64,000 bases of DNA from Candidatus Nitrospira neomarina (GCF_032051675.1 NZ_CP116968.1:1364001-1428000); one strand, 5' to 3'; counted from the first letter of the stretch, positions 3,981-22,884 are shown. Program-made: numbers and translations. Notes: a model not told the origin generated them from the letters alone.

Positions 3981-6900
3981 GTGTCCGATCGCATTCTACA
4001 TCACCCCATCCAGAAAAGAGGATCTTTCCACTCTCCCAGCATCTTGCTGCTCTCTTTCCTGTTATGCAGTTTGACCGCATTGCTCCTTCCAATCCAGGCC
4101 CACGCAGATACCTCCAGTAGTACCGTGAACGGAAAAGTTCCTGCCCAATATATCGCCGAGACCCAGGGAAAATCCTGGGCCGTCATCATAGGCATTGATA
4201 AATATCTGAATCTCGCCGGCCTGGCCTATGCGGTCGATGATGCGAAATCGATGGCACGCATGCTGGGACGTCAAGGATTTACGGTTTCATCCCTCTACAA
4301 CACTCAAGCCACCAAAAAAGCGATCCTTCAGGAGTTGCGCCACAACCTTGTGACACAAGTACAAAAAAATGATCGAGTGCTCATCTTTTTTGCGGGGCAC
4401 ATCGGAGAGACCCCCGGCAAGGGAAAACAGCAACCCGCAGGCTACATGATGCCCGTCGATACCGAGCCGGGCCTACTTGCGGACACCGCAATCAGTGTGG
4501 ATCTTCTTCGCGAACTTTCCGAATCACTTCCGGCAAAACAGGTCTTAATTCTCATAGACATTTGTTATGGAGGCATTGCCGGTCGCAGTCAGCGTTCATT
4601 CCCCCCCATGACCAGTAATTATCTCAAGATGATTGCCAGTGAATCTGCGCGCCAATTGATCACCGCAGGAGGAACGGGGCAGCAAGCCTTAGCCGGACCG
4701 AAGTGGAAACATAGCGTGTTTACGTATTATCTTCTGGAAGGCATTGGAAAGGGAAAGGGTGACCTGAACGGCGATGGGATCATTCCCACATCCGAACTCT
4801 TCACCTATCTCGATGAGCACGTGCAATCGGCTGCTCTCACGCATAAACATGTGCAACGACCGGAGATGTGGGGGTTGAGTGGAGATAAGGGAGAATTTGT
4901 CTTTATTCCCGAAAAATTTTCCTCCAACCCTCAAGTCGCCAACACCCAAGGAAAGACGAGCAATCCTGCAGCTGGAACGGTCGAGACCATTGTCGGACTC
5001 TTAAAGAGTTTTGGAAATCCCCTGGATGTCTTCAACAACGGTCCATCTGGAAAGAGCGAGCAGGCTGATAAACAAAAAACGGTAGAAGAAGAAGCTGCCG
5101 CGCTAGAGGCAGAGCGGGAAAAATTTGAATTGCAAGCTCTCCAATCTTTAAAGGAGCAACGGCAGCGGGAGAAGGATCTTCAAGCGCAACTGGCCGAAGC
5201 CCAACGTCTGGCCGAGGAGGAGGAACGTCGGCGGGTCGCCGCGGAACAGGCCCGTCAGGAACAAGAAGCGCTCTTAGCGGAACAACAAGCCGCGTTAAAA
5301 GCCGAACAAGCCCGCGTGGCCGCCGAAGAAGAGCACCGCAAACAAGTCTTGGCGGAACAAGAACAAACTCGTCTGGCGCAACTGGCCGAAGCTCAACGCC
5401 TGGCTGCGGAGGAGGAACGCCGGCGGGTTGCCGCGGAACAGGCCCGCCAGGAACAAGAAGCCCTCTTAGCGCAACAACTAGCCGCGTTAAAAGCCGAACA
5501 AGCCCGTGTGGCCGCCGAAGAAAAACAACAACGCCAGCTGGCCTTAGCGCAACTGGCCGAAGCCCAGCGCCTGGCTGCGGAGGAGGAACGCCGGCGGGTC
5601 GCCGCGGAACAGGCCCGTCGGGAACAAGAAGCGCTCTTGGCCGAACAACAGGCCGCGTTAAAAGCCGAACAAGCCCGTGTGGCCGCCGAAGAAAAACAAC
5701 GCCAGCTGGCCTTAGCGCAACTAGCCGAAGCTCAACGCCTGGCTGCGGAGGAGGAACGCCGGCGGGTCGCCGCGGAACAGGCCCGCCGTGAACAGGAAGC
5801 GCTCTTGGTGCAACAACAAGCCGCTTTAAAAGCCCAACAAGCCAAGCTCGCCGCCGAGGAAGAGCGACGAAAACAACTCTTGGCACAACGAGAACGGGAA
5901 TTTCAAACGCAACTGGCCATAGCCCAGCGAATGGTAGCCGAAGAAGAACGTCGACGTGTGGAAGCCGAAAAGGCCAGACTTGCGGCAGAGGAGCAAAAAC
6001 GAAAACAACTCTTGGCGGAACGGGAACTTACGCGACAAACTCAACTCGCTGAAGCTCGCCGAATGGCCGAGGAACAGGCCAGAATTGAAGCCGAGGAACA
6101 GCGCCGCAAGGAAGCCTTGGCTAAACAGGAACTCACCCGCCAAGCCCAACTCGCTGAAGCCCGACGGGTGGCCGAGGAACAGGCCAGAATTGAAGCCGAG
6201 GAACAGCGCCGCAAGGAAGCCTTAGCCAGACAGGAACTCACCCGCCAAGCCCAATTGGCTGAAGCCCGACGGGTGGCCGAGGAACAGGCCAGAATTGAAG
6301 CCGAGGAACAGCGCCGCAAGGAAGCCTTAGCCAAAGAGGAACTCACCCGTCAAACCCAACTGGCCGAAGCCCGACGAGTGGCCGAGGAACAGGCTCGCAT
6401 TAAGCAAGAGGCCGCCATGAAAGCCGAAAAGGCCCGACTGGCAGCCCTGGAAGAAGAGCGGGAACAAGTTGCCCGCCTGAAGCAAGAAGCCGCCATGAAA
6501 GCCGAAAAGGCCCGACTTGCCGCAGAAGAGCAACAACGCCAGCAGGCGGAGGAAGCGCGTCGCCTGGCCGATTTGGAAGAAGAGCGTCGACGAGTCGCCG
6601 CAGAACGTGAGCGTAAGGAACTAGAGGCGAAAGTTACGCAACCACCAATTATTGTCCCGAATGGTGGAAATGAGCCGGCAGGGCCTTCTTCTGGAAGTTC
6701 GCTAACGCCTGGGACCCTTTCCGCATCCACCCCTTCTCCCCCATCCCCCTCGGCGATTGAACCATCCTCGAACGAGAATTCAGGGTTTTTCGGATTTTTT
6801 AAGAATATGTTTGAAAATGACTCTAGCTCACCCCCAGCGGCCAGTGATCAACCGAAGGTATCCCAACCAGAACCCATTCTTGAGGCACGGCTACATCAAC

Positions 6901-7730
6901 AAGATTTACCTGGCGCCGTGGAGTCCGCCCTCTCAGGAAATGATGACGTCCCCATGATCTTGATTCCCGCCGGAGAATTTAGAATGGGAAGCACTGAGAA
7001 TCAAATTTCCAGTCTCCTGAAAGACTTTGAAGGAATCCAGTTCAATGCCTTTCAAGCAGAGATTCCTCAACGCCAGGTTAGCCTTAAAGCCTATTATATT
7101 GATCAATATGAGGTCAGCTATCGCCGCTATCGTGCATTTCTTGAATCGACAGGTCGGGCAGCCCCTGCGTTCTGGGAAAATGAACGATTCCACAAACCGG
7201 ATCATCCGGTCCTCGGAGTGACCTGGTATGACGCAACGGCCTATTGCACCTGGGCTGGCAAACGCCTTCCTACCGAAGCGGAATGGGAATACGCCGCCAG
7301 AGGACCACAAGGTTATGCCTATCCTTGGGGAAACTCATGGGATCCTCAACGGACCAATACGGCAAGTTATTGGGCAGGCAAAAATTTTTCATCAATGGCG
7401 AAATGGGGTGAGTGGATGCAAACCGCGTTGGATCGCGGAAAAGCCGGCCCGTTAGAAGTTGGCACCTTCTCGAATGGAGTGAGTCCATTTGGTATTCATG
7501 ACATGGCTGGAAATATATCCGAGTGGGTCTTTGATTGGTATACACCGTACGAGAACCAACCGACCCTCATCCATAATCCCGACGGGGCGGACTCCGGGAC
7601 CATGAAAGTGCATCGTGGAGGATCCTGGAGTGTGAGTTCGATTTTTGCCCGTTCAACCTATCGGGCTCGAGAAAATCCTGAAAAGAGAAGTCCCTACATT
7701 GGAATGCGATGCGCCAAATCTTCTCAATAA
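3981..7730 (+). CDS. Exported caspase-like protease with a long coiled coil and a C-terminal SUMF1 domain
   Basis: This 1249-residue protein starts at GTG 3981 with AGGAG about 10 bp upstream. Residues about 18-42 form a signal peptide (hydrophobic core ILLLSFLLCSLTALLLPI, then QAHA). Residues about 64-310 are a caspase-like (peptidase C14) domain with both catalytic positions present: His140 in FFAGHIG and Cys195 in LIDICYGG. Residues about 365-885 are an extreme Glu/Ala/Arg/Gln-rich coiled coil made of tandem blocks. A Pro/Ser-rich linker follows, then a SUMF1 fold from about residue 988 (ILIPAGEFRMGS, LPTEAEWEYAARG, DMAGNISEWVFD, HRGGSWS). The signal peptide puts the protease outside the cytoplasm, unlike most defence-type caspases. 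Substrate unknown; the SUMF1 domain lacks the paired copper-binding cysteines and may be a ligand-binding module. Confidence 0.85.
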   Translation: MSDRILHHPIQKRGSFHSPSILLLSFLLCSLTALLLPIQAHADTSSSTVNGKVPAQYIAETQGKSWAVIIGIDKYLNLAGLAYAVDDAKSMARMLGRQGFTVSSLYNTQATKKAILQELRHNLVTQVQKNDRVLIFFAGHIGETPGKGKQQPAGYMMPVDTEPGLLADTAISVDLLRELSESLPAKQVLILIDICYGGIAGRSQRSFPPMTSNYLKMIASESARQLITAGGTGQQALAGPKWKHSVFTYYLLEGIGKGKGDLNGDGIIPTSELFTYLDEHVQSAALTHKHVQRPEMWGLSGDKGEFVFIPEKFSSNPQVANTQGKTSNPAAGTVETIVGLLKSFGNPLDVFNNGPSGKSEQADKQKTVEEEAAALEAEREKFELQALQSLKEQRQREKDLQAQLAEAQRLAEEEERRRVAAEQARQEQEALLAEQQAALKAEQARVAAEEEHRKQVLAEQEQTRLAQLAEAQRLAAEEERRRVAAEQARQEQEALLAQQLAALKAEQARVAAEEKQQRQLALAQLAEAQRLAAEEERRRVAAEQARREQEALLAEQQAALKAEQARVAAEEKQRQLALAQLAEAQRLAAEEERRRVAAEQARREQEALLVQQQAALKAQQAKLAAEEERRKQLLAQREREFQTQLAIAQRMVAEEERRRVEAEKARLAAEEQKRKQLLAERELTRQTQLAEARRMAEEQARIEAEEQRRKEALAKQELTRQAQLAEARRVAEEQARIEAEEQRRKEALARQELTRQAQLAEARRVAEEQARIEAEEQRRKEALAKEELTRQTQLAEARRVAEEQARIKQEAAMKAEKARLAALEEEREQVARLKQEAAMKAEKARLAAEEQQRQQAEEARRLADLEEERRRVAAERERKELEAKVTQPPIIVPNGGNEPAGPSSGSSLTPGTLSASTPSPPSPSAIEPSSNENSGFFGFFKNMFENDSSSPPAASDQPKVSQPEPILEARLHQQDLPGAVESALSGNDDVPMILIPAGEFRMGSTENQISSLLKDFEGIQFNAFQAEIPQRQVSLKAYYIDQYEVSYRRYRAFLESTGRAAPAFWENERFHKPDHPVLGVTWYDATAYCTWAGKRLPTEAEWEYAARGPQGYAYPWGNSWDPQRTNTASYWAGKNFSSMAKWGEWMQTALDRGKAGPLEVGTFSNGVSPFGIHDMAGNISEWVFDWYTPYENQPTLIHNPDGADSGTMKVHRGGSWSVSSIFARSTYRARENPEKRSPYIGMRCAKSSQ
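5187..6462 (+). repeat. In-frame tandem DNA repeats encoding the coiled coil
   Basis: Two repeat types follow each other inside the caspase-like gene. The first begins at 5187, 5379, 5550, 5718 and 5910, giving unit lengths of 192, 171, 168 and 192 bp (64, 57, 56 and 64 codons). The second begins at 6042, 6147, 6252 and 6357 with an exact 105-bp period (35 codons, five heptads). Units are highly similar at the DNA level, which points to recent unequal exchange. Confidence 0.85.
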
Positions 7731-7828: not shown

Positions 7829-10642
7829 CTACTGAATCTCCCAATCTGTGGAGGTTGAGCCTGGGAACCCCACGGCGGAAATCGTTAATCCATTCATCAG
7901 CCACACCGCTACCGTCCCATTCCGGCTATTACGCCAAATGACATCCGCTCTGCCATCGCCATTCACATCCCGCGCCTCTGACATCTGCCAGACGGCCGGG
8001 ACGCCACCCGGAAATCCTGAAGCGGCAATGGTGGTGCCGTTCATTAACCAGATTGCGGTACTGCTGTCAGTCGTATTGCGCCAAATCAGGTCCGCCTTCC
8101 CATCCCCGTTCACATCGCCCACACCCGTGACCTTAAAGGCCGTGGAAGCGCTTCCAGGAAAACCTACGGCCGTCACCGACAACCCGTTCATCAGCCATAC
8201 AGCCACTGCCCCACTGTTGCCGTTGCGCCAGATGACATCCGCCTTGTTATCCCCATTCACATCGCCCACACCCGTGATGTGCCAGGCCTCCGGCACTCCT
8301 CCCGGAAACCCTGAGGCGGCAATGGTGGTGCCGTTCATCAACCAGATCGCGGTACTACCATCAGTGGTATTGCGCCAAATCAGATCCGCCTTCCCATCCC
8401 CGTTCACATCGCCCACGCCCATGATCTCAAAGGCGAGCGAGGCGCTACCCGGAAAGCCTGTTGAAACAATCGTTAACCCGTCCATCAACCACACGGCCAC
8501 TGCCCCATTGGTGCCGTTGCGCCAAATAACATCGGCCTTATTATCTCCATTCACATCGCCCACCCCGGCGATGTGCCAGGCCATGGTCACTCCACCGGGA
8601 AACCCTGAGGCCGCAATCGTCGTCCCATCCATCAACCAAATTGCGGTGTTGCCATTAGAATTGTTCCGCCAAACCAGATCAGCTTTGCCATTGGCATCGA
8701 GATCTCCCAAGGCCGGTGCGGTCCTGAGCGGGACCAAGGTCAAGGCTGTCGTCACAAAAAAGTCAGGGCCCGAGAGCGCAACCGCAGTTCTGGTTTTATT
8801 GTTCACATGGATTGTTTCAAACAGAATATTCTTGGAAAATCCTGAGGTCACCTTATGCTGACCTGAAAAATGATACAGGAGGTCAGGCGACGATCCTACC
8901 CCAATCGTCTCACTCTCCCGAAAATTCGGTTGTCCGGCCACGGCGCCGGCCGAGACATCCAGGAATTCCGTCGTAGCTCCCGTCGTTGTATTGACCGTAT
9001 AAATCCGTGCCGGAAACACGGTCGCCCCTCCAGGCACCGGTCGATTGTCGGTAATCGCATAGAGGATCCCGGCTGCATCAAACGCCAGATCCATGAAGTT
9101 TCCCAGAAGTTTGGCCTTTTGGGTAGCCACGCCCGTCCTGGGATTAATGGTCACTAACCGGCGGGCACTGTTCACTTCTGACGTCACGACAAGCAAGCCC
9201 CATAGCAGACCGGTCCCAGGCTCGGTGGCCAACCCCCGTCCTCCCTCTATTGATTCGCCCGTCGATAAGGACAGAGGGATCGTGGCCAGGGTGGCCCCAG
9301 TCTCGGGATTGAGCCGATACAGATTTGGCCGGGCCCCGGACTGTTGCGCAAGCGTCAGCTCTTCCACGGAATACAGCGTGGACCCGACAAACGCCAAACC
9401 ATGGGTGCGGTGGTTCAGATCCGCAATTTTGGTGACGACTCCATCAGTGCGAAGACGGTAGAGGCTATTCACGAGCGGTCCGATTCTGGGATCATTTTGT
9501 ACACCCATCAGAAAAACCGGCGGTCCGGAGGAAATGACCAGGGCCACCGAACTTCCCGGAGTCACCTTTATTCCTGGCACTGGTGTTTGATTAATGACGG
9601 TCCCGCTGGGCACCGTTTCACTATTGGCGGTCGTCACGGTCCCCACCGTTAAGCCCGCCGCGATCAGAGTCGATTGGGCGCTGCTCTGTGTCAACCCCAC
9701 GACATTGGGCACGGTCGTTCCCAGCGACACCACCAAAGCAACCGCACTTCCAGGGTTCACAGTTGTGCCGGCCCCCGGGTTTTGACTCATCACTCTACCA
9801 GCCGCTACGGTGGCGCTATTGGCCATGGTCACGGATCCCAGGGTTAAGCCAGCAGAGATCAGGGCTTTTTGGGCGTCGGCTTGCGTGCGACCAACCACAT
9901 TCGGGACTTGTGTCCCTTGGGACACGACCAGGGCCACAGCACTTCCCGCCGCTACCTTTTTTCCGGCTACCGGATTTTGACTAATAACCTTTCCTGTGGC
10001 CACGGTGCCACTAATGGCTGTCGTCACTGCACCGACGGTCAAACCAGCCGTGGTAATCGCCGATTGAGCGGCCGCCTGCGTCATGCCCACCACATTCGGG
10101 ACTGTGCTACCTAGTGATACCACCAGGTCGACCGGACTCCCAAATGCCACCTTGGTTCCCGCCGTGGGGTTTTGACTGATAACCTTGCCTGCCGCCACCG
10201 TCGCACTATTGGCCGATGTCACCGTCCCAACTTTCAGCCCTGCTTTGGTCAGATCCTTTTGGGCGTCAGCTTGCTTTCGACCGACGACGTCGGGGACTGC
10301 CACTCCAGACACCACCAGATCAACCTTCGTCCCTCGGACGACATTAATTCCTGCTGCCGGGTCTTGAATGATGACAGTACCGGGCGGGACGGTGGCATTA
10401 TTAGCCGAGGTTACTTTTCCCACCCTCAAATTGGCCTTGATAATATCCGCCTCCGCCTTAGCCTGTGAGCTGCCCACGACATTGGGGACTTCAACGGCTC
10501 TTGCCGTCTCAGGTAAGGCACAGGTCAGGAAGAGTAAACTGCCTAGGACCATTAGCTGTAAAACCAGAAACTTGAGGGCCTGACGGGTTCCCTTGTGCGT
10601 GCGGTTCAAGATCTGCTGATGCTGAACTTTCATTGCGTCCAT
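7829..10642 (-). CDS. Secreted PASTA / propeller-like / FG-GAP protein, paralogue 1 (5 PASTA)
   Basis: An exported protein of about 937 residues. After a signal peptide (LVLQLMVLGSLLFLTC, then ARAVEVP) come five PASTA domains of about 65 residues, each opening VPNVVG or VPDVVG and ending near VDLVVS or VALVVS. PASTA domains bind peptidoglycan fragments in Ser/Thr kinases and PBPs. A central domain of about 270 residues follows (opening FLMGVQNDP, with LYRLNPETGAT, LAFDAAGILYAITDN and ARIYTVN), which looks like a beta propeller. Then come six FG-GAP/VCBS-like repeats with calcium-loop motifs such as DVNGDGKAD, ending WEIQ. I prefer ATG 10642: the longer frame begins with TTG at 10687, and GGAG upstream of 10642 lies in a stretch (TGCTGAATGGAG) also found before paralogue 2. 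Probable role is cell-surface adhesion or wall binding, by domain inference. Confidence 0.8.
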   Translation of the reverse strand: MDAMKVQHQQILNRTHKGTRQALKFLVLQLMVLGSLLFLTCALPETARAVEVPNVVGSSQAKAEADIIKANLRVGKVTSANNATVPPGTVIIQDPAAGINVVRGTKVDLVVSGVAVPDVVGRKQADAQKDLTKAGLKVGTVTSANSATVAAGKVISQNPTAGTKVAFGSPVDLVVSLGSTVPNVVGMTQAAAQSAITTAGLTVGAVTTAISGTVATGKVISQNPVAGKKVAAGSAVALVVSQGTQVPNVVGRTQADAQKALISAGLTLGSVTMANSATVAAGRVMSQNPGAGTTVNPGSAVALVVSLGTTVPNVVGLTQSSAQSTLIAAGLTVGTVTTANSETVPSGTVINQTPVPGIKVTPGSSVALVISSGPPVFLMGVQNDPRIGPLVNSLYRLRTDGVVTKIADLNHRTHGLAFVGSTLYSVEELTLAQQSGARPNLYRLNPETGATLATIPLSLSTGESIEGGRGLATEPGTGLLWGLLVVTSEVNSARRLVTINPRTGVATQKAKLLGNFMDLAFDAAGILYAITDNRPVPGGATVFPARIYTVNTTTGATTEFLDVSAGAVAGQPNFRESETIGVGSSPDLLYHFSGQHKVTSGFSKNILFETIHVNNKTRTAVALSGPDFFVTTALTLVPLRTAPALGDLDANGKADLVWRNNSNGNTAIWLMDGTTIAASGFPGGVTMAWHIAGVGDVNGDNKADVIWRNGTNGAVAVWLMDGLTIVSTGFPGSASLAFEIMGVGDVNGDGKADLIWRNTTDGSTAIWLMNGTTIAASGFPGGVPEAWHITGVGDVNGDNKADVIWRNGNSGAVAVWLMNGLSVTAVGFPGSASTAFKVTGVGDVNGDGKADLIWRNTTDSSTAIWLMNGTTIAASGFPGGVPAVWQMSEARDVNGDGRADVIWRNSRNGTVAVWLMNGLTISAVGFPGSTSTDWEIQ

Positions 10643-10740
10643 GTCGTGTATGCTCCATTCAGCAACAATCGAGGAACCATATAACAAAACACGGTTTCGA
10701 ATTCATACTCTGGCCCCAGCGATCCCTCTTTCGAATGGCT

Positions 10741-10765
10741 CTCCTGCTTTTTATTATGGCAGGAG
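10741..10765 (-). terminator. Hairpin downstream of paralogue 2
   Basis: A perfect 7-bp stem CTCCTGC/GCAGGAG with an 11-base AT-rich loop lies 30 bp beyond the stop codon of the 10797-14021 gene. There is no run of T after the stem, so the assignment is weak. Confidence 0.3.
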
Positions 10766-10796
10766 TGGATATGCCTGGATATGCCTTAACCAATGC

Positions 10797-13700
10797 CTAC
10801 TGAATCTCCCAGTCTGAGGGAGCAGAGCCAGGGAAACCCACGCTTGAAATCGATGCCCCATTCATCAACCAGACGGCCACGGTCCCGCTCCGTCCATTAC
10901 GCCAGATAACATCCGATTTCCCATCGCCATTGATATCCCCGACTTGAGAAATCTGCCATGCTAAGGGAACCCCCCCAGGAAAACCGGGGGCAGCAATGGT
11001 GGTCCCATTCATCAGCCAGATGGCGGTACTGCCGTCCGTCGCATTGCGCCAGACCAGATCGGCCTTGCCATCCCCATTTACATCGCCGACGCCTGCAATC
11101 TCAAATGCCGTCGACGCACTGCCGGGAAAGCCGACTCCCGTGATACCTAATCCGTTCATCAACCACACGGCTACGGTGCCGCTCGCACCATTGCGCCAGA
11201 TGACATCCGCCTTACTATCCCCATTCACATCGCCCACACCCGCGATTTGCCAGCCCATCGGCACCCCCCCCGGAAAACCAGGAGCAGCGATTGTCGTTCC
11301 GTTCATCAGCCAGATGGCGGTACTGCCATCAGTCCTGTTGCGCCAGACCAGGTCGGCCTTCTCATCGCCGTTCACATCGCCCACGCCGGAAATCTCAAAC
11401 GCCAGCGATGCGCTTCCGGGAAAACCCACGGACGTCACCGACACGCCATTCATCAGCCACACGGCTACGGTGCCACTTGTACTATTGCGCCAAATGACAT
11501 CCCCCTTACCGTCTCCATTCACATCGCCCACACCCGCAATCCGCCAGGCCGCGGGCACCCCGCCCGGGAATCCTGTAGCTGCGATGGTCGTTCCATTCAT
11601 CAACCAAATGGCCGTGCTGCCATCTTGGGTGTTTTGCCAGATCAAATCGGTCGTGCCGGACGCATCCAGATCGGCCAACGCCGGAGTACCTGTACCCGTA
11701 TTCGTTTTCGTGGGTGGCACCAACGTCAAGGCCGTCGTCACAAAAAAGTCCGGGCCCGAGAGCGCAATGGCTTTTCTGGCCTTCGTGGTTCGATGGATCT
11801 GCTCAAACAAAATATTCTTGGTAAATCCAGAGGTCACCTTATGTTGACCGGAGAGATGATACAGTAGATCCGGCGACGATCCGACCCCTATGGTTTCACT
11901 CTCGCGGAAATTCGGTTGCCCCGCTACGGCGCCGGCCGAGACATTCAGAAATTCCGTCGTGGCCCCCGTCGTCTTATTCACCGTATAAATCCGGGCCGGA
12001 GCCACAGCCCCACCGGATACGGGTCGGTTATCCGTGATGGCATACAGCGTCCCGGCCGCATCAAACGCCAGGTCCATGAAGTTTCCAAACAGTTTCGCCT
12101 TTTGCGTGGCGACGCCGGTCGTCGGATTGATCGTGACTAACCGGCGGAGAGTATTCACCTCGGAGGTCACCACGAGTAACCCCCACAGTTGGTTGGTTCC
12201 GGGCTCCGTGGCCAGACCCCGCCCTCCTTCCAATGATTCCCCTGTCGATAAGGACAGGCGGATCGTGGCCAGCGTGGCCCCGGTGCTGGGATTGAGCCGA
12301 TACAAATTCGGCGGAGTCCCTGCTTGTTTGGCAAGTGTCAGCTCTTCTACGGAATACAAGTTGGATCCGACATAAGCTAAGCCATGTGTGCGGTGCGTGA
12401 GATTTCCAATTTTGGACACCACCCCATCGGTACGAAGTCGATAGAGGCTATTCACCAGGGGCCCGGTCTTGGGATCATTTTGCACTCCCATGAGAAGAAC
12501 CGGTGGACCGGAGGAGATGACCAAACCGACGCCACTACCTGGTGAAACATTCGTCCCCGCTGTGGGGTTTTGACTGATCACATTTCCCGAAGCCACCGTG
12601 TCGCTGAAAACTGACGTCACGTTCCCCACCGTCAAGCCTACACCAGCAATGGCAGCTTGCGCCGCAGCTTGCGATTTGTTGACCACATTGGGCACGGCCG
12701 TTCCCACAGATACGACGAGAGCGACCGCACTGCCTGGGGCCACATTAGACCCAGCTGTCGGATTTTGACTGATGACGTTTCCGATGGCCACCGTCTGACT
12801 GTTGGCCGATGTCACCGTCCCAACTTTCAGACCTGCCGTGCTCAGAGCTGTTTGAGCACTACCTTTCGTACTCCCGACGACATCGGGCACCTTTGCCCCA
12901 AGGGACACAACCAGAGCCACTGCACTACCTGCCTCCACCTTTGCCCCTGCAGCCGGATTCTGACTGATGACCTTGCCCGAGGCCACACTAGAACTATTGG
13001 CCTTGGTCACCCTGCCCACAGTCAGGTTGGCTGAGGTAATTTCCGTTTGCGCCGCCGTTTGCGTCAAGCCCACGACATTCGGCACCACCACCCCCGAGGA
13101 CACCACCAACGTCACAGCACTAGCTGGAGCCACATTGGTCCCGGCCCCCGGAGATTGACTGATGACCGTGCCCGCTGGCACCGTCGTACTGGTCTCCGTG
13201 GTCACTGTCCCCACGGTCAAACCGGAACTTTTAATGGCGGCTTCCGCCGCGGCCTGCGTCAATCCGACCACATTGGGCACCTTCGCTCCCAGGGACACCA
13301 CAAGAGCCACCGCACTGCCCGGAGGCACATTACTCCCCGCAGCCGGCGTTTGACTGATGACCCGTCCGGCCGGCACCGTGGCACTATTGGTTGTCGTCCC
13401 TGTCCCCACCGTGAGACCTGCTGCCGTAATGGCGGTTTCCGCTGCGGCTTTGGTCAACCCTATCAGGTCCGGCACCGCGGTCCCCAGCGAAATCACGAGA
13501 GTTACGGCATTACCGGGCAATACATTGGTTCCCGCTGCGGGGGTTTGACTGATAACATTGCCGATGGGCACCGTGGCACTATTGGCTGTCGTCCCTGTCC
13601 CCACCGTGAGATTTGCTGCCGTAATGGCGGTTTCCGCAGCCGCCTGCGCCAACCCCACCACATTTGGCACCGTCACTCCGGATACCACGAGGTCCACTCG

Positions 13701-14021
13701 ACTCCCCGATACCACATTGATCCCGGCCGCCGGATCCTGACTAATCACTTCGCCGATGGGCACCGTGGCACTATTGGCGGACGTTACGACCCCCACAGAC
13801 AATTCCGAGCTAATAATTGCCGCCTCTGCATTTGATTGTGGGATTCCGACCACATCGGGGACCTCTACGGCACCTGCCGTGGCAGGTACGCCACAGATGA
13901 GAAATACCAGGCACACAAGAAAACCGAACTGCAAAATGATCGAGGCAGGATCTTTTGGCAATTTCTGACAGGTGAAATTCAACATCGTTTCGTTCTGATG
14001 CAGAACTTTCATAAGGTTCAT
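10797..14021 (-). CDS. Secreted PASTA / propeller-like / FG-GAP protein, paralogue 2 (7 PASTA)
   Basis: A protein of about 1074 residues with the same domain order as its neighbours: signal peptide (hydrophobic FGFLVCLVFLICGVPA), seven PASTA domains (openings VPDVVG, VPNVVG, VPDLIG, VPNVVG, VPNVVG, VPDVVG, VPNVVN), the conserved central domain and six FG-GAP-like repeats. The FG-GAP repeats alternate between two forms, one with ADLVWRN and FPGGVP, the other with ADVIWRN and FPGSAS, so the block is three copies of a dimer. The start is set at ATG 14021, nine bases after GGAG; an in-frame ATG at 14036 overlaps that site and is less likely. The central domain is much more conserved between paralogues than the PASTA section, whose length varies. 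Confidence 0.8.
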   Translation of the reverse strand: MNLMKVLHQNETMLNFTCQKLPKDPASIILQFGFLVCLVFLICGVPATAGAVEVPDVVGIPQSNAEAAIISSELSVGVVTSANSATVPIGEVISQDPAAGINVVSGSRVDLVVSGVTVPNVVGLAQAAAETAITAANLTVGTGTTANSATVPIGNVISQTPAAGTNVLPGNAVTLVISLGTAVPDLIGLTKAAAETAITAAGLTVGTGTTTNSATVPAGRVISQTPAAGSNVPPGSAVALVVSLGAKVPNVVGLTQAAAEAAIKSSGLTVGTVTTETSTTVPAGTVISQSPGAGTNVAPASAVTLVVSSGVVVPNVVGLTQTAAQTEITSANLTVGRVTKANSSSVASGKVISQNPAAGAKVEAGSAVALVVSLGAKVPDVVGSTKGSAQTALSTAGLKVGTVTSANSQTVAIGNVISQNPTAGSNVAPGSAVALVVSVGTAVPNVVNKSQAAAQAAIAGVGLTVGNVTSVFSDTVASGNVISQNPTAGTNVSPGSGVGLVISSGPPVLLMGVQNDPKTGPLVNSLYRLRTDGVVSKIGNLTHRTHGLAYVGSNLYSVEELTLAKQAGTPPNLYRLNPSTGATLATIRLSLSTGESLEGGRGLATEPGTNQLWGLLVVTSEVNTLRRLVTINPTTGVATQKAKLFGNFMDLAFDAAGTLYAITDNRPVSGGAVAPARIYTVNKTTGATTEFLNVSAGAVAGQPNFRESETIGVGSSPDLLYHLSGQHKVTSGFTKNILFEQIHRTTKARKAIALSGPDFFVTTALTLVPPTKTNTGTGTPALADLDASGTTDLIWQNTQDGSTAIWLMNGTTIAATGFPGGVPAAWRIAGVGDVNGDGKGDVIWRNSTSGTVAVWLMNGVSVTSVGFPGSASLAFEISGVGDVNGDEKADLVWRNRTDGSTAIWLMNGTTIAAPGFPGGVPMGWQIAGVGDVNGDSKADVIWRNGASGTVAVWLMNGLGITGVGFPGSASTAFEIAGVGDVNGDGKADLVWRNATDGSTAIWLMNGTTIAAPGFPGGVPLAWQISQVGDINGDGKSDVIWRNGRSGTVAVWLMNGASISSVGFPGSAPSDWEIQ

Positions 14022-14212
14022 ATCGTTAGACTCCATTCAGCAAGAATCAGCTGCCCAGTCCACGGCGCCCCAGGCCCGCCTGGCTACACCAGCTACCTAC
14101 GCGCCTGACCCATGGATTGCCGTTGCTTTTTTCGGTGAAATGAAAAAAAAGGGCTTCGTTGTCTCTGCAATGGGGGAGGGTTGGTCGTGTTGTCAACCAG
14201 ATGGATGAAAGA

Positions 14213-14226
14213 TTTCTGATCAGAAA
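14213..14226. promoter_or_regulatory. Perfect 14-bp palindrome upstream of paralogue 2
   Basis: TTTCTGATCAGAAA is its own reverse complement and lies about 190 bp upstream of the 14021 start, in the only sizeable gap inside the array. It could be an operator. No clear promoter hexamers were recognised beside it. Confidence 0.3.
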
Positions 14227-14322
14227 CACGGAAAAAATAAAACTTACTATAACATGAGAGGGTAGACGCGTTCCATCCTTAACAGGTTGGCCTGCTGGTC
14301 CCCATCCGACCGGAATTATTAT

Positions 14323-17300
14323 CTACTGAATCTCCCAGACTGAGGAAGCGGAACCGGGGAAACCCACAGCCGAAATTGACAACCCGTTCATCAGCCAGAC
14401 GGCCACCGTACCACTCGGGCTATTGCGCCAAATGACATCCGCCTTACCATCCCCATTCACATCACCGACTTGAGAAATTTTCCACGCTAAGGGTACCCCG
14501 CCAGGAAAACCGGGGGAAGCAATCGTGGTCCCATTCATCAGCCAGATCGCGGTGCTGCCATCAGTCTGGTTGCGCCAGACCAGGTCGGCTTTGCCATCCG
14601 CGTTCACATCGCCCACGCCCGCAATCTCAAATGCTGTCGATGCACTACCGGGGAAGCCGACTCCCGTGATAGTTAACCCGTTCATCAGCCACACGGCTGC
14701 GGTACCGGTGGTATTGCGCCAGATGATATCGGCTTTGCCATCCCCATTGACATCGCCCACGCCCGCAATTTGCCAGGCCAAAGACAATCCGCCAGGAAAA
14801 CCGGAAGAAGCAATGGTGATCCCATTCATCAGCCAGATCGCGGTGCTGCCATCAGTCTGGTTGCGCCAGACCAGGTCGGCTTTGCCGTCCCCATTCACAT
14901 CGCCCACCCCAGCAATCTCAAACGCCGTTGAGGTACTTCCGGGAAAGCCCACGGATGTCACCGACACCCCGTTCATTAACCACACGGCCAACGTGCCAGT
15001 GGCATTCCGCCAAATGACATCCGCCTTGCCATCGCCGTTCAGATCGCCAACGCCTGCGATCTGCCAAGCCAGCGGCACCCCGCCTGGAAAACCTGAGGCC
15101 GCGATGCTCGATCCGTTCATCAACCAGATCGCGGTGCTACCATCAGTCGTATTCCGCCAAACCAGGTCGGTCGTACCGGATGCATCCAGATCCGCCAAGG
15201 CCGGAAGATTTGGACTCATGGGTGGCACCAACGTCAAGGCCGTCGTCACAAAAAAGTCCGGGCCCGTGATCGAAATTGCGGTTCTGGCTTTATTGTTCAG
15301 ATTGATCGTTTCAAACAGAATATTTTTAGTAAATCCTGACGTCACCTTATGCTGCCCGGAAAGATGATACAGCAGATCAGATGAAGTCCCCATCCCAATC
15401 GTCTCACTTTCTCGAAAATTCGGTTGCCCCGCCACAGCCCCGGCCGAGACATTCAGAAATTCCGTCGTGGCCCCCGTCGTCTTATTCACCGTATAAATTC
15501 GAGCCGGAGCCACTCCCCCGCCGGAAACCGATCGGTTATCCGTGATCGCATACAGTGTCCCGGCCGCATCAAAGGCCAGATCCATAAAGTTTCCAAACAG
15601 TTTGGCCTTTTGGGTGGCCAGGCCCGAGGTCGGATTAATTGTCACTAACCGGCGGGCATTGTTCACTTCGGACGTCACGACGAGCAACCCCCACAACTGA
15701 TTGGTCCCAGGCTCCGTGGCCAGCCCTCGAGCGCCCTCTAACGATTCACTCGTGGATAATGAGAGGGAGATTGTTTCCAGCGTGGCCCCGGTATCGGGAT
15801 TGAGCCGATACATCTTCGGCGGGGTCCCGGCCTGTTGCGAAAGCGTCAGCTCTTCCACGGAATATAGATTAGACCCAACAAAGGCCAAGCCATGCGTACG
15901 ATGCGTCAGATCTGCGACTTTGGTCACCACCCCGTCGGTGCGAAGTCGGTAGAGGCTATTTACCAGGGGCCCGGTCTTGGGATCATTTTGCACTCCCATC
16001 AGAAAAGCCGGCGGTCCGGATGAAATCTCCAGAGCCACCCCACTGCCCGGTTCCACATTCGTCCCCGCCGTCGGATTTTGACTAATCACGGTTCCGAGGG
16101 GAACAGTGTCGCTAAAAACCGCCGTTACCGTCCCGACAGTAAGGCCCGCCGTGATCAAAGCCGTTTGAGCAACACTCTGCGTCAAGCCCACGACATCGGG
16201 TACCTGAGCCCCTAGCGATACCACCAGGGCCACCGCACTCCCAGGCGCTACATTGTTTCCCGCTGTCGGATTTTGACTAATGACCCTACCAATCGCCACG
16301 GTTGGACTCGTGGCGGTCGTCACCGTCCCCACCGTCAAGCCCGCCGTGGTAATCGCGGATTGCGCGGCCGCCTGCGTCAAGCCCACGACATTCGGAACTG
16401 CGGCGCCCAGGGAGACGACAATATTCACTGCACTGCCCGCCGTGACGCTCGTGCCTGACGCGGGAGTTTGACTGATAACTCTCCCAATGGGCACCGACGC
16501 ACTCGTGGCAGTCGTCACCGTCCCCACTGTCAAACCGGCCGTGGTAATCGCGGATTGGGCGGCACCCTGCGTTAAACCGACCACATTCGGCACCACCGGC
16601 CCCAGCGACACCACCAACGCCACCGCACTCCCAGGCGCCACATTGTTTCCGGCCCCTGGATTCTGACTGATGACCTTTCCTTCGGAGACTGTCGCACTAG
16701 CCTCAGTCGTCACAGCCCCCACTGTTAACCCGACATTCGTAATTGCCGTTTGAGCGGCAGCTTGCGCCAAGCCCACGACATTCGGTACCGCAGTGCCCAG
16801 GGAAACGACAATGTTCACCCCACTGCCCGCTGTCACACTCGTTCCCGGTGCAGGAGTTTGACTAATGACCCTCCCAATGGGCACCGACTGACTATTGGCC
16901 GAGGTCACCGTGCCCACTGTCAGGCCGGCATTGGTAATCGCCGTTTGGGCAGCCGACTGGGTTAAGCCCACCACATTCGGCACTGCCGGCCCAGTCGACA
17001 CCACCAGATTCACTGCACTGCCTGGCGCTACGTTGTTCCCGGCCCCTGGATTCTGACTGATGACATTCCCGCTCGGCACCGATGGATGACTGGCTGTCGT
17101 AATGGCCCCTACCGTCAAACCGGCATTGGTAATGGCCGTTTGCGCGGCCGACTGGGTCAAACCCACCACATTCGGCACCGCGGTTCCCAGGGACACCACA
17201 AAGGCAACAGCACTCCCTGGCTCCACATTGCCTCCCGCTACGGGGTTCTGACTAATGACGATTCCAATAGGCACGGTCGCACTATTCGCGGAGGTCACCG

Positions 17301-18102
17301 TCCCCACCGTGAGACCCGCATTGGTAATGGCGGTTTGAGCATTGCTTTGTGTGATCCCCACGACATCCGGCACCGACGCGCCCAGGGACACCACCAAGGC
17401 TACGGCACTGCCCGCCGCCACATTGGTTCCGGCCGCCGGATTCTGACTGATGACATTTCCAATTGCCACAGTCGTACTATTCGCCATCGTCACCGTGCCC
17501 ACCGCAAGGTTGGCACTGGTAATCGCCGATTGCGCCGTGCCTTGGGGCAATCCCACGACATTTGGCACCGCGATACCCAAAGACACCACAAAGGCCACCG
17601 CATTACCCTGAAATACAGGGGTCCCCGCCGCCGGATTCTGACTGATGACGTTTCCAATAGGCACGGTCGCACTATTCGCGGACGTCACCGCCCCCACTGT
17701 GAGACCGGCATTCGTGATAGCAGTTTGGGCATTGCCCTCTGTGACCCCAACCACATTCGGCACCGCCACACCAGAAATCACAAGGTCCACCGGACTGCCC
17801 GGCACCACATTGATCCCAGCTGCCGGATCTTGGTTGATGACGTTGCCAATGGGCACACCACCATCAATGACTGCCGTCACAACTCCCACAGTGAGACCGA
17901 TGTTTATAATCTCTGATTCTGCTGTGGTCTGTGGGCTCCCGATAAAATCAGGGACTTCCACGGCTCTTGCTGTTGCTGGAAAGATAAAGTTGAGGAAAAC
18001 GAGGCTTACGGGAACCAGCAGCCAAAGAAAGATCACCTTGTGACCTTTTGGCAACTTCTGGTGGGTTAGATTCAACCCGTTCAGGTGCTGAACCTTCATC
18101 AC
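14323..18102 (-). CDS. Secreted PASTA / propeller-like / FG-GAP protein, paralogue 3 (10 PASTA)
   Basis: A 1259-residue member of the same family: signal peptide (LWLLVPVSLVFLNFIFPA, then TARAVEVP), ten PASTA domains, the central propeller-like domain and six FG-GAP-like repeats with DxNGDGKAD loops, ending VWEIQ. It begins with GTG 18102 or the adjacent ATG 18099; a G-rich stretch directly before it is a poor ribosome binding site. The N-terminal MKVQH matches the MKVQH and MKVLH of paralogues 1 and 2. The frame is open throughout, so this is the longest apparently intact member. The last and first genes of the array differ mainly in PASTA number, which suggests growth by unequal recombination between PASTA units. 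Confidence 0.8.
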   Translation of the reverse strand: MMKVQHLNGLNLTHQKLPKGHKVIFLWLLVPVSLVFLNFIFPATARAVEVPDFIGSPQTTAESEIINIGLTVGVVTAVIDGGVPIGNVINQDPAAGINVVPGSPVDLVISGVAVPNVVGVTEGNAQTAITNAGLTVGAVTSANSATVPIGNVISQNPAAGTPVFQGNAVAFVVSLGIAVPNVVGLPQGTAQSAITSANLAVGTVTMANSTTVAIGNVISQNPAAGTNVAAGSAVALVVSLGASVPDVVGITQSNAQTAITNAGLTVGTVTSANSATVPIGIVISQNPVAGGNVEPGSAVAFVVSLGTAVPNVVGLTQSAAQTAITNAGLTVGAITTASHPSVPSGNVISQNPGAGNNVAPGSAVNLVVSTGPAVPNVVGLTQSAAQTAITNAGLTVGTVTSANSQSVPIGRVISQTPAPGTSVTAGSGVNIVVSLGTAVPNVVGLAQAAAQTAITNVGLTVGAVTTEASATVSEGKVISQNPGAGNNVAPGSAVALVVSLGPVVPNVVGLTQGAAQSAITTAGLTVGTVTTATSASVPIGRVISQTPASGTSVTAGSAVNIVVSLGAAVPNVVGLTQAAAQSAITTAGLTVGTVTTATSPTVAIGRVISQNPTAGNNVAPGSAVALVVSLGAQVPDVVGLTQSVAQTALITAGLTVGTVTAVFSDTVPLGTVISQNPTAGTNVEPGSGVALEISSGPPAFLMGVQNDPKTGPLVNSLYRLRTDGVVTKVADLTHRTHGLAFVGSNLYSVEELTLSQQAGTPPKMYRLNPDTGATLETISLSLSTSESLEGARGLATEPGTNQLWGLLVVTSEVNNARRLVTINPTSGLATQKAKLFGNFMDLAFDAAGTLYAITDNRSVSGGGVAPARIYTVNKTTGATTEFLNVSAGAVAGQPNFRESETIGMGTSSDLLYHLSGQHKVTSGFTKNILFETINLNNKARTAISITGPDFFVTTALTLVPPMSPNLPALADLDASGTTDLVWRNTTDGSTAIWLMNGSSIAASGFPGGVPLAWQIAGVGDLNGDGKADVIWRNATGTLAVWLMNGVSVTSVGFPGSTSTAFEIAGVGDVNGDGKADLVWRNQTDGSTAIWLMNGITIASSGFPGGLSLAWQIAGVGDVNGDGKADIIWRNTTGTAAVWLMNGLTITGVGFPGSASTAFEIAGVGDVNADGKADLVWRNQTDGSTAIWLMNGTTIASPGFPGGVPLAWKISQVGDVNGDGKADVIWRNSPSGTVAVWLMNGLSISAVGFPGSASSVWEIQ

Positions 18103-20560
18103 CCCCCCGGCGGACTCGGTCGTGGAATAAACTACGTGGGCGAAAGATACCTGATTATGAGCATAAGAGAAATAAAATGTAAGCTAAACTGTCAAAGGAT
18201 GAGAAACTATGACTATAAGCCAATCAGTTCGAAATATCCCTCCTACTGAATTTCCCAATCGGAGGGAGCGGAACCAGGGAAACCTACGGTCGAGATTGAT
18301 AACCCGTTCATCAACCAAACCGCCACTATGGCACTTTTTTCATTGCGCCAGATGACATCGGCATTACCATCTCCGTTCACGTCGCCGACTTGAGAAATTT
18401 TCCACGCGACGGGCACGCCCCCTGGAAAGCCGGCCGTAGTAATGGCCGTCCCATTCATTAACCAAATTGCGGTACTGCCATTATTTTGATTGCGCCAGAT
18501 CAAGTCCGCCTTGCCATCGCCGTTCACATCGCCAGCACCCGCCATATCAAAAGCGATTGGTGCCACGCCGACAAAACCGACGTCGGTCACCGATAATCCG
18601 TTCATCAGCCATACGGCCACTCCCCCAGTAGTGCCATTGCGCCAAATGACATCTGCTCTACCATCCCCATTGACATCGCCCACGCCCTCGATGTGCCAGG
18701 CAAGAGGCACTCCGCCCGGAAAGCCGGAGGCGACAATGGTGGCCCCGTTCATCAACCAAATTGCGGTGCTGCCATCAGTGATGTTACGCCAGACCAGGTC
18801 GGCTTTGCCATCACCGTTCACATCGCCCACGCCTGCAATTTCAAACGCCGCCGACGTGCTTCCCGGAAAGCCTACGGCCGTCACCGCCACCCCGTTCATT
18901 AGCCATACGGCCACCGTGCCGGTGGAATTGCGCCAGATGACATCCGCCTTGCCATCGCCGTCCACATCGCCTACGCCCGCGATCTGCCAATCCCTCGGCA
19001 CCCCGCCCGGAAAACCGGAGGCGGCGATTGTCGTTCCGTTCATCAACCAGATCGCAGTACTACCATCACTCTGGTTGCGCCAGATGAGATCAGCCGTGCC
19101 CGACGCATCCAGATCTCCCAATGCCGGAGGACTCGTAGGTGGTACCATGGTCAAGGCCGTCGTCACAAAAAAATCCGGGCCTGTGAGGGCCATCGCCGTT
19201 CTGGCTTTTGTCGTCCGATGAATCGTTTCAAACAGGATATTCTTGGTAAACCCTGGGGTTACCTTATGCTGACCGGAGAGGTGATACAATAGGTCAGAAG
19301 AAGACCCCATCCCAATCGTTTCACTTTCTCGAAAATTCGGTTGCCCCGCCACGGCACCCGCCGAGACATCCAGAAATTCCGTCGTAGCTCCTGTCGACTT
19401 GTTCACCGTATAAATCCTGGCCGGAAACACCTTCGCCCCCCCAGGTGCCGATCGGTTGTCCGTGATCGCATACAGCGTCCCGGATGCATCAAAGGCCAGG
19501 TCCATAAAGTTTCCAAACAGTTTGGTCTTTTGGGTCGCCAATCCCGTCGTCGGATTAATCGTGACTAACCGCCGGGCACTGTTGACTTCGGACGTCACCA
19601 CAAGCAACCCCCAGAGCAGATTTGTCCCGGGTTCCGTGGCCAACCCTCGCCCGCCTTCTAACGATTCGCCCGTCGATAACGACAAGGGAATCCTGGCCAG
19701 CGAGGCCCCGCTTTCCGGATTCAGTCGATGCAAATTCGGGGAAGCACCAGGTTGCGGAGAAAGAGACAGCTCCTCGAGGGAATACAACGTGGTTCCGACA
19801 TAGGCCAGGCCATGCGTGCGATGCGTCAGATCCCCAATTTTGCTTACGACCCCATCGGTGCGAAGGCGATAGAGACTATTCACCAGGGGACCGGTCCTGG
19901 GATCATTTTGCACCCCCATTAAAAAAACCGGTGGTCCTGACGAAATAACTAGGGCTACCGAACTGCCCGGATCCACATTGGTTCCTGCGCCAGGCTTTTG
20001 ACTAATGACGTCGCCAACCGGCACCGTGGCACTAATGGTCGACGTCACCATCCCCCCTGTCAGGCCGGCCGCGGCCAAGGCCTTTTGAGCATTGATCTGC
20101 GACAAGCCCACCACATTCGGCACTGCGGCTCCAAGGGATACGACCAGGTCCACTGCACTGCCCGCGGCCACATTTTCTCCGGCTGACGGGGCTTGACTGA
20201 TAACTCTGCCAATGGAGACTGTCTGACTGTTGGTTGAGGCCACCGTACCCAACTTCAAGCCTGCCCTGGTAATTGCAGTTTGCGCCGCGGCCTGCGTCAA
20301 GCCCTCCACATTCGGGACGGCGGTTCCGAGGGATACGACAAGGTTCACCGCACTGCCTGCCGCCACCTTGCTTCCTGGCTGGGGAGTTTGACTGATAACT
20401 CTGCCAATGGAGACTGTCTGACTGTTGGTTGAGGTCACCGTGCCCAACTTCAAGCCTGCCCTGGTAATCGCAGTTTGTGCCGCGGCCTGGGTTAGGCCTA
20501 CGACATTCGGCACCGCCGGGCCCGTCGACACCACCAGGTTCACCGCACTGCCCGCCGCCA

Positions 20561-21784
20561 CACGCGTCCCGGCCCCCGGCGTTTGACTGATGACCCGCCC
20601 CGAGGCCACCGACGCATGGCTGCTCTCCGTGATGGTCCCGACCTTCAACCCCGCCTTGGTGACCGCGGTCTGCGCCGCCGCCTGCGGGCTCCCCACCACA
20701 TTCGGCACTGTGACCGGCGCCGGGCCCGTCGACACCACCAGGTTCACCGCACTGCCCGCCGCCACACGCGTCCCGGCCCCCGGCGTTTGGCTGATGACCC
20801 GCCCCGAGGCCACCGACGCATGGCTGCTCTCCGTGATGGTCCCGACCTTTAACCCCGCCTTGGTGACCGCGGTCTGCGCCGCCGCCTGCGGGCTCCCCAC
20901 CACATTCGGCACTGTGACCGGCGCCGGGCCCGTCGACACCACCAGGTTCACCGCACTGCCCGCCGCCACACGCGTCCCGGCCCCCGGCGTTTGGCTGATG
21001 ACCCGCCCCGAGGCCACCGACGCATGGCTGCTCTCCGTGATGGTCCCGACCTTTAACCCCGCCTTGGTGACCGCGGTCTGCGCCGCCGCCTGCGGGCTCC
21101 CCACCACATTCGGCACTGTGACCGGCGCCGGGCCTGTCGACACCACCAGGTTCACGGCACTGCCCGCCGCCACACGCGCTCCCGCCCCCGGCGTTTGGCT
21201 GATGACCCGCCCCGAGGCCACCGACGCATGGCTGCTCTCCGTGATGGTCCCGACCTTTAACCCCGCCTTGGTGACCGCCGTCTGCGCCGCCGCCTGCGGG
21301 CTCCCCACCACATTCGGCACTGTGACCGGCGCCGGGCCCGTCGACACCACCAGGTTCACCGCACTGCCTGCCGCCACACGCGTCCCGGCCCCCGGCGTTT
21401 GGCTGATGACCCGCCCCGAGGCCACCGACGCATGGCTGCTCTCCGTGATGGTCCCGACCTTTAACCCCGCCTTGGTGACCGCGGTCTGCGCCGCCGCCTG
21501 CGGGCTCCCCACCACATTCGGCACTGTGACCGGCGCCGGGCCCGTCGACACCACCAGGTTCACCGCACTGCCCGCCGCCACACGCGTCCCGGCCCCCGGC
21601 GTTTGGCTGATGACCCGCCCCGAGGCCACCGACGCATGGCTGCTCTCCGTGATGGTCCCGACCTTTAACCCCGCCTTGGTGACCGCGGTCTGCGCCGCCG
21701 CCTGCGGGCTCCCCACCACATTCGGCACTGTGACCGGCGCCGGGCCTGTCGACACCACCAGGTCCACCGCACTGCCCGCCGCCA
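20561..21784 (-). repeat. Six nearly identical 204-bp PASTA-coding units
   Basis: Units start at 20561, 20765, 20969, 21173, 21377 and 21581 with an exact 204-bp period (68 codons). They differ at only a few bases, and the encoded units differ at a single residue (GAGTR or GAGAR). Each carries a PAPVT linker. PASTA units in the other paralogues are far more divergent from each other, so this block expanded or was homogenised recently. Confidence 0.9.
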
Positions 21785-22109
21785 CACGCGCTCCCGCCCC
21801 CGGCGCTTGACTGATGACCCGCCCCGACGGCACCGACCCATCGTTAGCGGTCGTGATGGACCCCACCGTCAAGCCCGCCCCCGTAATGGCCGATTCCGCC
21901 GCCCCTTGCGTACTCCCCACCACATTCGGCACCGTCACCGGCGCCGGCCCCGTCGACACCACCAGGTTCACCGCACTGCCCGCCGCCACACTTGTCCCGG
22001 CTTCCGGCGCTTGGCTGATGACCCGCCCCGACGGCACCGAGGCATGGTTGGCGGTCGTGATGGACCCCACCGTCAAGCCCGCCCCCGTAATGGCCGACTC
22101 CGCCGCCCC

Positions 22110-22363
22110 TTGCGTACTCCCCACCACATTCGGCACCGTCACCGGCGCCGGGCCCGTCGACACCACCAGGTTTACCGCACTGCCCGCCGCCACACTCGTC
22201 CCGGCTTCCGGCGCTTGGCTGATGACACTCCCCGCCTTGCGTACTCCCCACCACATTCGGCACCGTCACCGGCGCCGGGCCCGTCGACACCACCAGGTTT
22301 ACCGCACTGCCCGCCGCCACACTCGTCCCGGCTTCCGGCGCTTGGCTGATGACACTCCCCGCC
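22110..22363 (-). repeat. 127-bp tandem duplication that breaks the PASTA reading frame
   Basis: Bases 22110-22236 are repeated without visible difference at 22237-22363. The unit is 127 bp, not a multiple of three and not the 204-bp PASTA period, so the second copy shifts the frame. An equivalent description is loss of 77 bp from one 204-bp unit. Confidence 0.85.
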
Positions 22364-22884
22364 GGCACCGTGGCATGACTGCTGTTCGTGATCGTGCCCA
22401 CCTTCAGGCCCGCCCCAATAATGGCCCCCTCAGCAGACGCCTGCGTGTTCCCCACCACATTCGGCACCGTCACCGGCGCCGGGCCCGTCGACACCACCAG
22501 GTTTACCGCACTGCCCGCCGCCACACTCGCTCCAGCCTCCGGCGTTTGACTGATGACACTACCCGAAGGCACCGACCCATCGTTGGCCGTCGTGATAGAC
22601 CCCACCGTCAACCCTGCCCCCGTAATGGCCGACTCCGCCGCCCCCTGACTCAACCCAACCACATCGGGGACATCTTCGGCCCATACTGTTGGCAAGGCGA
22701 AGGTGGGTATCAACATTCCCACCACAACCACGACCTGAAAAAGATGTATCAGCCAACCATGGCTTTCACTTCTTTTGCGTTTCCGGACTTCTTTAAGCTG
22801 TTGCTCTGCGGCGTTCATGCGCAATGCCTCTGGGGGTGGAAGCAAGCGAAACATCTTTGTCAAAGGGATGAAAACCACGGACAC

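Follow-up and report, generated by a model that had tools for sequence, protein, structure and literature searches.

Four adjacent PASTA and propeller genes of 'Candidatus Nitrospira neomarina' with three inherited stalk lengths and one variable length

Work on PASTA domains has dealt almost exclusively with their role as sensors in kinases and penicillin-binding proteins (PBPs). In the Gram-negative nitrite oxidiser 'Candidatus Nitrospira neomarina' they occur in long chains that look like exchangeable spacers, in four adjacent genes of exported-protein type on the minus strand at positions 7829-22818 of the 64,000-nucleotide stretch analysed here (the window; NZ_CP116968.1:1364001-1428000). 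The locus raises the question of what one protein design, repeated on stalks of 5, 7, 10 and about 14 PASTA units, might do for this organism, and whether the lengths themselves matter. We read the array, with a probability of about 0.55, as encoding exported glycan-binding proteins of a single family in which the PASTA domains act as extended spacers. Among the papers searched, none joins the PASTA domain with Nitrospira or with FG-GAP repeats, and the array proteins are absent from the main text of the published N. marina proteome study.

Layout of the array

Each gene encodes, in order, a signal peptide, a PASTA stalk, a central domain of about 270 aa and six FG-GAP repeats. Matches to PASTA (PF03793) range from E 4e-77 to 3e-174, with every complete unit over the curated cut-off, and the central domain is 82-86% identical among the four paralogs, so that the four genes with a common central domain described by the initial annotation are confirmed, all on the same strand. 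Its unit counts also held: read in the direction of transcription, from gene 4 to gene 1, the stalks have about 14 (13 complete units and one truncated), 10, 7 and 5 units. Gene 1 (7829-10687; start probably the ATG at 10642 or 10633) comprises a five-unit stalk with a stride of 64-65 aa (9527-10489), the central domain (8720-9526) and the six-repeat FG-GAP C-terminal block, a predicted propeller (7832-8713). Gene 2 (10797-14036) and gene 3 (14323-18102) have the same plan with stalks of seven units (12510-13862) and ten units (16018-17955), respectively.

The Pfam domain order supports the earlier description of secreted proteins with PASTA as an N-terminal stalk, and no enzyme domain is found among the Pfam matches of the four proteins. 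The NCBIfam model PknB_PASTA_kin (NF033483) matches gene 3 at 585 bits against a cut-off of 450, through the PASTA repeats alone; since Pfam detects no kinase domain, the protein lies outside the Stk1/PknB PASTA kinases, which have a Ser/Thr kinase domain and a transmembrane helix ahead of PASTA, and the match is a likely source of misannotation. Inspected by eye, the signal-peptide-like N-termini end in AxA directly before the first PASTA unit. Anchoring as lipoproteins was rejected, likewise by eye, as the paralogs have no common lipobox, and neither an anchor nor an outer-membrane export route was found for the array proteins. Scanning the array for promoters and terminators gave the same counts as shuffled sequence and was uninformative on operon structure.

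Inheritance of the stalk lengths and the instability of gene 4

The whole array lies at one syntenic place in five genomes of the genus, that of 'Ca. N. neomarina' included, in the order FGE-domain gene, outer-membrane-type gene, caspase/FGE gene, array, DUF3386 gene and TPM gene (in the relative G013 a contig break separates the DUF3386 gene from the array). Several genomes are without the array at this place. The neighbouring gene at 3981-7730 encodes a caspase (C14) domain, long charged repeats and an FGE-sulfatase domain, and its synteny with the array is kept in five of five species.

In all five species the PASTA stalk is exactly 5 units long in gene 1, 7 in gene 2 and 10 in gene 3, and each unit best matches the unit at the same position of its orthologs in 100 of 100 comparisons for gene 1, 140 of 140 for gene 2 and 195 of 200 for gene 3. 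The central-domain tree forms gene-specific groups, well supported for genes 2, 3 and 4, with the gene 1 rows in two neighbouring groups, and the tree of the central domain together with the FG-GAP repeats resolves into four clean groups with all five species in each. One clade per paralog, each holding every species, implies that the array is older than the species split. The proteins are under strong purifying selection, with dN/dS of 0.04-0.15 for the two propeller domains and 0.13-0.29 for the PASTA stalks.

The fourth gene behaves differently. Its last three PASTA units (19938-20513; 65-aa stride) are orthologous in all species read, and upstream of them lies a variable block (20514-22671) of 68-aa (204-bp) units, many of them 90-100% alike within one genome, whose number varies. 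As assembled, the totals are 5 (G015), 6 (G016), 7 (G003), about 14 ('Ca. N. neomarina') and 17 (G018); in G015 the gene is cut by a contig end within the last unit, and in G013 the contig ends inside gene 4. Counts from the draft metagenome-assembled genomes may be collapsed, although reading through the array is plausible with longest exact repeats there of 45-101 bp. Gene 4 falls below the usual 10 units of gene 3 in three of the countable genomes. In another relative, G002, the gene adjoining DUF3386 has a gene-3-like stalk, which suggests further recombination.

The initial annotation had seen a steady gradient of PASTA number and held that random numbers in relatives would mark it as chance. 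Genes 1-3 come through this comparison, their 5-7-10 series being non-random and strictly inherited, and gene 4 does not: the stalk lengths form an inherited series whose fourth step is unstable and need not be the longest.

Do the fixed numbers mean that the proteins form a molecular ruler, in which selection has kept 5, 7 and 10 units so that one and the same binding end stands at defined distances from the surface? Across the five species genes 1-3 neither gained nor lost a unit, whereas gene 4 did so repeatedly, and for pneumococcal StkP the PASTA repeats are reported to be exchangeable modules that govern the thickness of the septal wall (Zucchini et al. 2018, as cited in PMC6593474). Against this, the units of genes 1-3 are only about 60-68% identical in DNA on average (at most 82%) and their exact repeats span 11-65 bp, compared with up to 394 bp in gene 4; so little substrate for recombination is enough to explain stable length without selection. 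The 5-7-10 order, moreover, was inherited once and counts as one event, a monotonic order of four is expected by chance in 2 of 24 cases, and there is no known anchor from which a distance would be measured. We therefore regard selected lengths as unlikely.

Gene 4 of 'Ca. N. neomarina' is not one open frame. Two frames overlap: an upstream frame (21844-22818, within an ORF spanning 22884-21844) encodes the signal peptide and two complete PASTA units before the reading is lost, and a downstream frame (18243-22256) encodes a truncated unit, 11 further PASTA units, the central domain and the six FG-GAP repeats (18246-19124). The split is caused by an exact, frame-shifting 127-bp tandem duplication at 22108-22363, the array's sole exact tandem duplication whose length is not made up of whole 204-bp units; no further exact 127-bp duplication occurs in the stretches of the genome examined. 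'Ca. Nitrospira neomarina DK' has been published as one circular chromosome of 4,796,652 bp and, like 'Ca. Nitrospira allomarina VA' (4,553,057 bp), was obtained by co-assembly of Illumina and Nanopore reads (PMC10579370). The chromosome sequence analysed here, one contig of 4,796,525 bp, is exactly 127 bp shorter. Because 127 is a common k-mer of de Bruijn assemblers, the length difference and the duplication look like contig-overlap handling at k=127, and we take the gene 4 duplication to be a probable artefact of assembly.

In the relative G018, gene 4 is broken by another lesion, one G missing from a GGGG run. Comparison of these two broken genes gives dN/dS of 0.11 for the central and 0.15 for the FG-GAP part; an old pseudogene was rejected on this ground, both parts being under purifying selection between two species with broken frames. 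The same observations could be read as a phase-variable contingency gene, switched on and off by recombination of 204-bp units and by frame-shifting partial duplications: both closed genomes have a frame break within the repeat block, by different lesions, the part downstream is still conserved, and copy number differs between genomes. We consider such switching quite improbable, given that the 127-bp length and the matching deficit of the co-assembled chromosome point to assembly, and that loss of one G is an error typical of long reads. The genomes compared are consensus sequences. In any case the frame break warns that repeat numbers taken from hybrid assemblies should be checked against the reads.

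The six-repeat end as a candidate lectin cassette

The C-terminal repeats of the array proteins match FG-GAP (PF01839/PF13517) and carry calcium-type loops (DxNxDG and DxNGDGxxD), with six predicted blades of 49 aa in every array gene. The calcium-dependent head proposed by the initial annotation corresponds to this FG-GAP end with its DxNxDG loops, and calcium binding is a prediction from the loop type. An AlphaFold2 model of the central domain together with the six-repeat block has a pLDDT of 84.5 (mostly 83-96 in the six-repeat part), and in it the block forms six four-stranded blades with the C-terminal strand placed to close the ring, as in a six-bladed propeller. A full-length model of the gene 1 protein (888 aa, from a three-row alignment) reached a pLDDT of 47.9 and yielded no stalk geometry. 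The central domain has no Pfam name, and a search of solved structures by sequence found no relative of it; the joint model, weak similarity to a protein that itself matches DUF4394/Tachylectin and matches to tandem propellers such as LRP6 indicate that it is probably propeller-like.

When the modelled block was compared by fold with solved structures, the best match was 9oee_A, UmbA4 of the Streptomyces coelicolor umbrella particles with teichuronic acid (Z 29.7, rmsd 2.7, 294 residues, 18% identity), far ahead of a next-best chain at Z 16.6. By sequence, the FG-GAP part gave weak integrin matches only, so the UmbA4 match comes through the fold alone. The six-bladed propeller of UmbA4 is a demonstrated glycan binder that holds wall polysaccharide through blade pockets (PMC13274773). 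The likeness covers the whole 294-residue domain, in both cases the C-terminal six-bladed propeller of a secreted protein, modelled as such in the array, with degenerate blade repeats and calcium-type loops. UmbA proteins differ in having an N-terminal trypsin-like domain that docks UmbB, which Pfam does not detect in the array proteins; there the N-terminus is PASTA, and the block is joined to PASTA stalks and to a second propeller-like domain. Seven-bladed FG-GAP propellers (integrin alpha, the Psathyrella velutina lectin and the Photorhabdus PLL lectins) share the DxNxDG loops and the propeller fold, and have lectin or adhesion function in common, a function that is predicted for the array block; they differ from its six compact 49-aa blades and score lower (Z 13.7-16.3), the fungal and Photorhabdus propeller lectins reaching Z 13.8-16.3. 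Propellers also bind proteins or serve as scaffolds. With the fold match to a glycan-binding propeller, and with 18% identity as its limit, a lectin is our best guess for the block.

That each array gene ends in exactly six FG-GAP repeats had been noted from the start; this is true of all four, but the array shares the feature with other proteins. A further 11 exported proteins of this genome, whose N-termini are unrelated (FN3, bacterial Ig, purple acid phosphatase, InlB B-repeats and others), end in exactly six such repeats, nearly all of them closing with WEIQ or a close variant. A profile of the block finds 15 copies in 'Ca. N. neomarina' (loci L075-L077 and L080-L084, with the array copies within 7832-19124), and the other four array genomes have 13-17 copies each. 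Of the 20 genomes of the genus, 14 have matches; a sample of 148 genomes from the phylum adds only two others, which indicates a cassette largely confined to this genus within Nitrospirota.

Relatives show exceptions, with five or six repeats in proteins of G007 and three in one of G009. The latter (L023:1-1392, the same as L055) has PASTA and the central domain and only three FG-GAP repeats before the same C-terminus, either half a propeller or a loss in assembly. A cassette protein at L081:5659-7266 and its apparent orthologs in other genomes of the genus stop a few residues short of the closing WEIQ strand, at a TAG whose position is identical or almost so in several species; the propeller is possibly open or closed by a partner. 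A protein of G007 that by eye resembles a multicopper oxidase (L054:1416-3857) ends in FG-GAP repeats of the same type. In another cassette protein (L076:4649-5309) exact 288-bp tandem repeats lie in the bacterial-Ig region, another recently expanded stalk.

Exchange of stalks and the role of PASTA

The initial annotation had taken the PASTA part for a wall-binding stalk. By that account it would bind peptidoglycan and so hold the protein in place, as PASTA does in kinases and PBPs, and the propellers would form an outward head. The very strong Pfam scores are in keeping with this, and PASTA domains of Ser/Thr kinases are described in PMC5786024 as binding peptidoglycan fragments. The array proteins resemble the PASTA kinases (StkP, PrkC, PknB) and PASTA PBPs in having linear tandem repeats exported to the envelope, which in StkP are reported to control the thickness of the septal wall; they differ in being without kinase, transpeptidase or transmembrane anchor, in having up to 17 units and in carrying PASTA at the mature N-terminus.

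The relative G007 speaks against such anchoring. Its proteins L052 and L053 carry the central domain and the FG-GAP end on stalks of InlB B-repeats (Flg_new_2; PF18998) instead of PASTA, and the 'Ca. N. neomarina' protein L081 likewise has the FG-GAP end on InlB B-repeats. Further large proteins of the genus combine PASTA with beta-helix, PKD and InlB B-repeat parts, and the six-repeat end, being found also on proteins without PASTA, is the better candidate for attachment. As the stalk was swapped in G007, PASTA looks like an exchangeable spacer and not like a part with a specific wall-binding role. A wall-binding stalk is thus not supported and seems unlikely to us, no anchor having been found.

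On the reading that we prefer, of exported glycan-binding proteins on spacers, a Sec-type signal peptide would be removed, so that the mature protein would start directly with the PASTA chain and have a free N-terminus. The chain would serve as an elongated spacer ahead of two beta-propellers, of which the last would be six-bladed, probably calcium-stabilised and closed by the C-terminal strand (..WEIQ). This last propeller, in its modelled form, resembles lectin propellers that bind bacterial surface polysaccharide. Because the cassette is present on many exported proteins of the genus, it would most likely dock them to polysaccharide, either in the envelope or matrix of the same cell or on neighbouring ones, which presupposes export beyond the outer membrane. 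The array would then present one two-propeller end on fixed stalks of 5, 7 and 10 units and on a fourth of variable length, variable because its units are nearly identical at the DNA level and recombine.

A bolder and distinctly tentative proposal is that lineage IV (marine) Nitrospira have a surface display system of their own. In it the six-bladed lectin propeller would be a C-terminal docking cassette on at least 12 unrelated exported proteins (phosphatase, Ig, FN3, InlB B-repeat and PASTA among their parts), and the PASTA array would set one shared domain off from the cell or matrix by three fixed distances and a fourth that can evolve. Some marine Nitrospira cultures form aggregates (PMC10579370), and a part in aggregation or matrix may be envisaged for these proteins. 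Because three of its members are fixed and one is variable, the array offers a natural series of lengths for asking whether stalk length matters, and the shared six-bladed end suggests how marine Nitrospira might display or cross-link matrix proteins.
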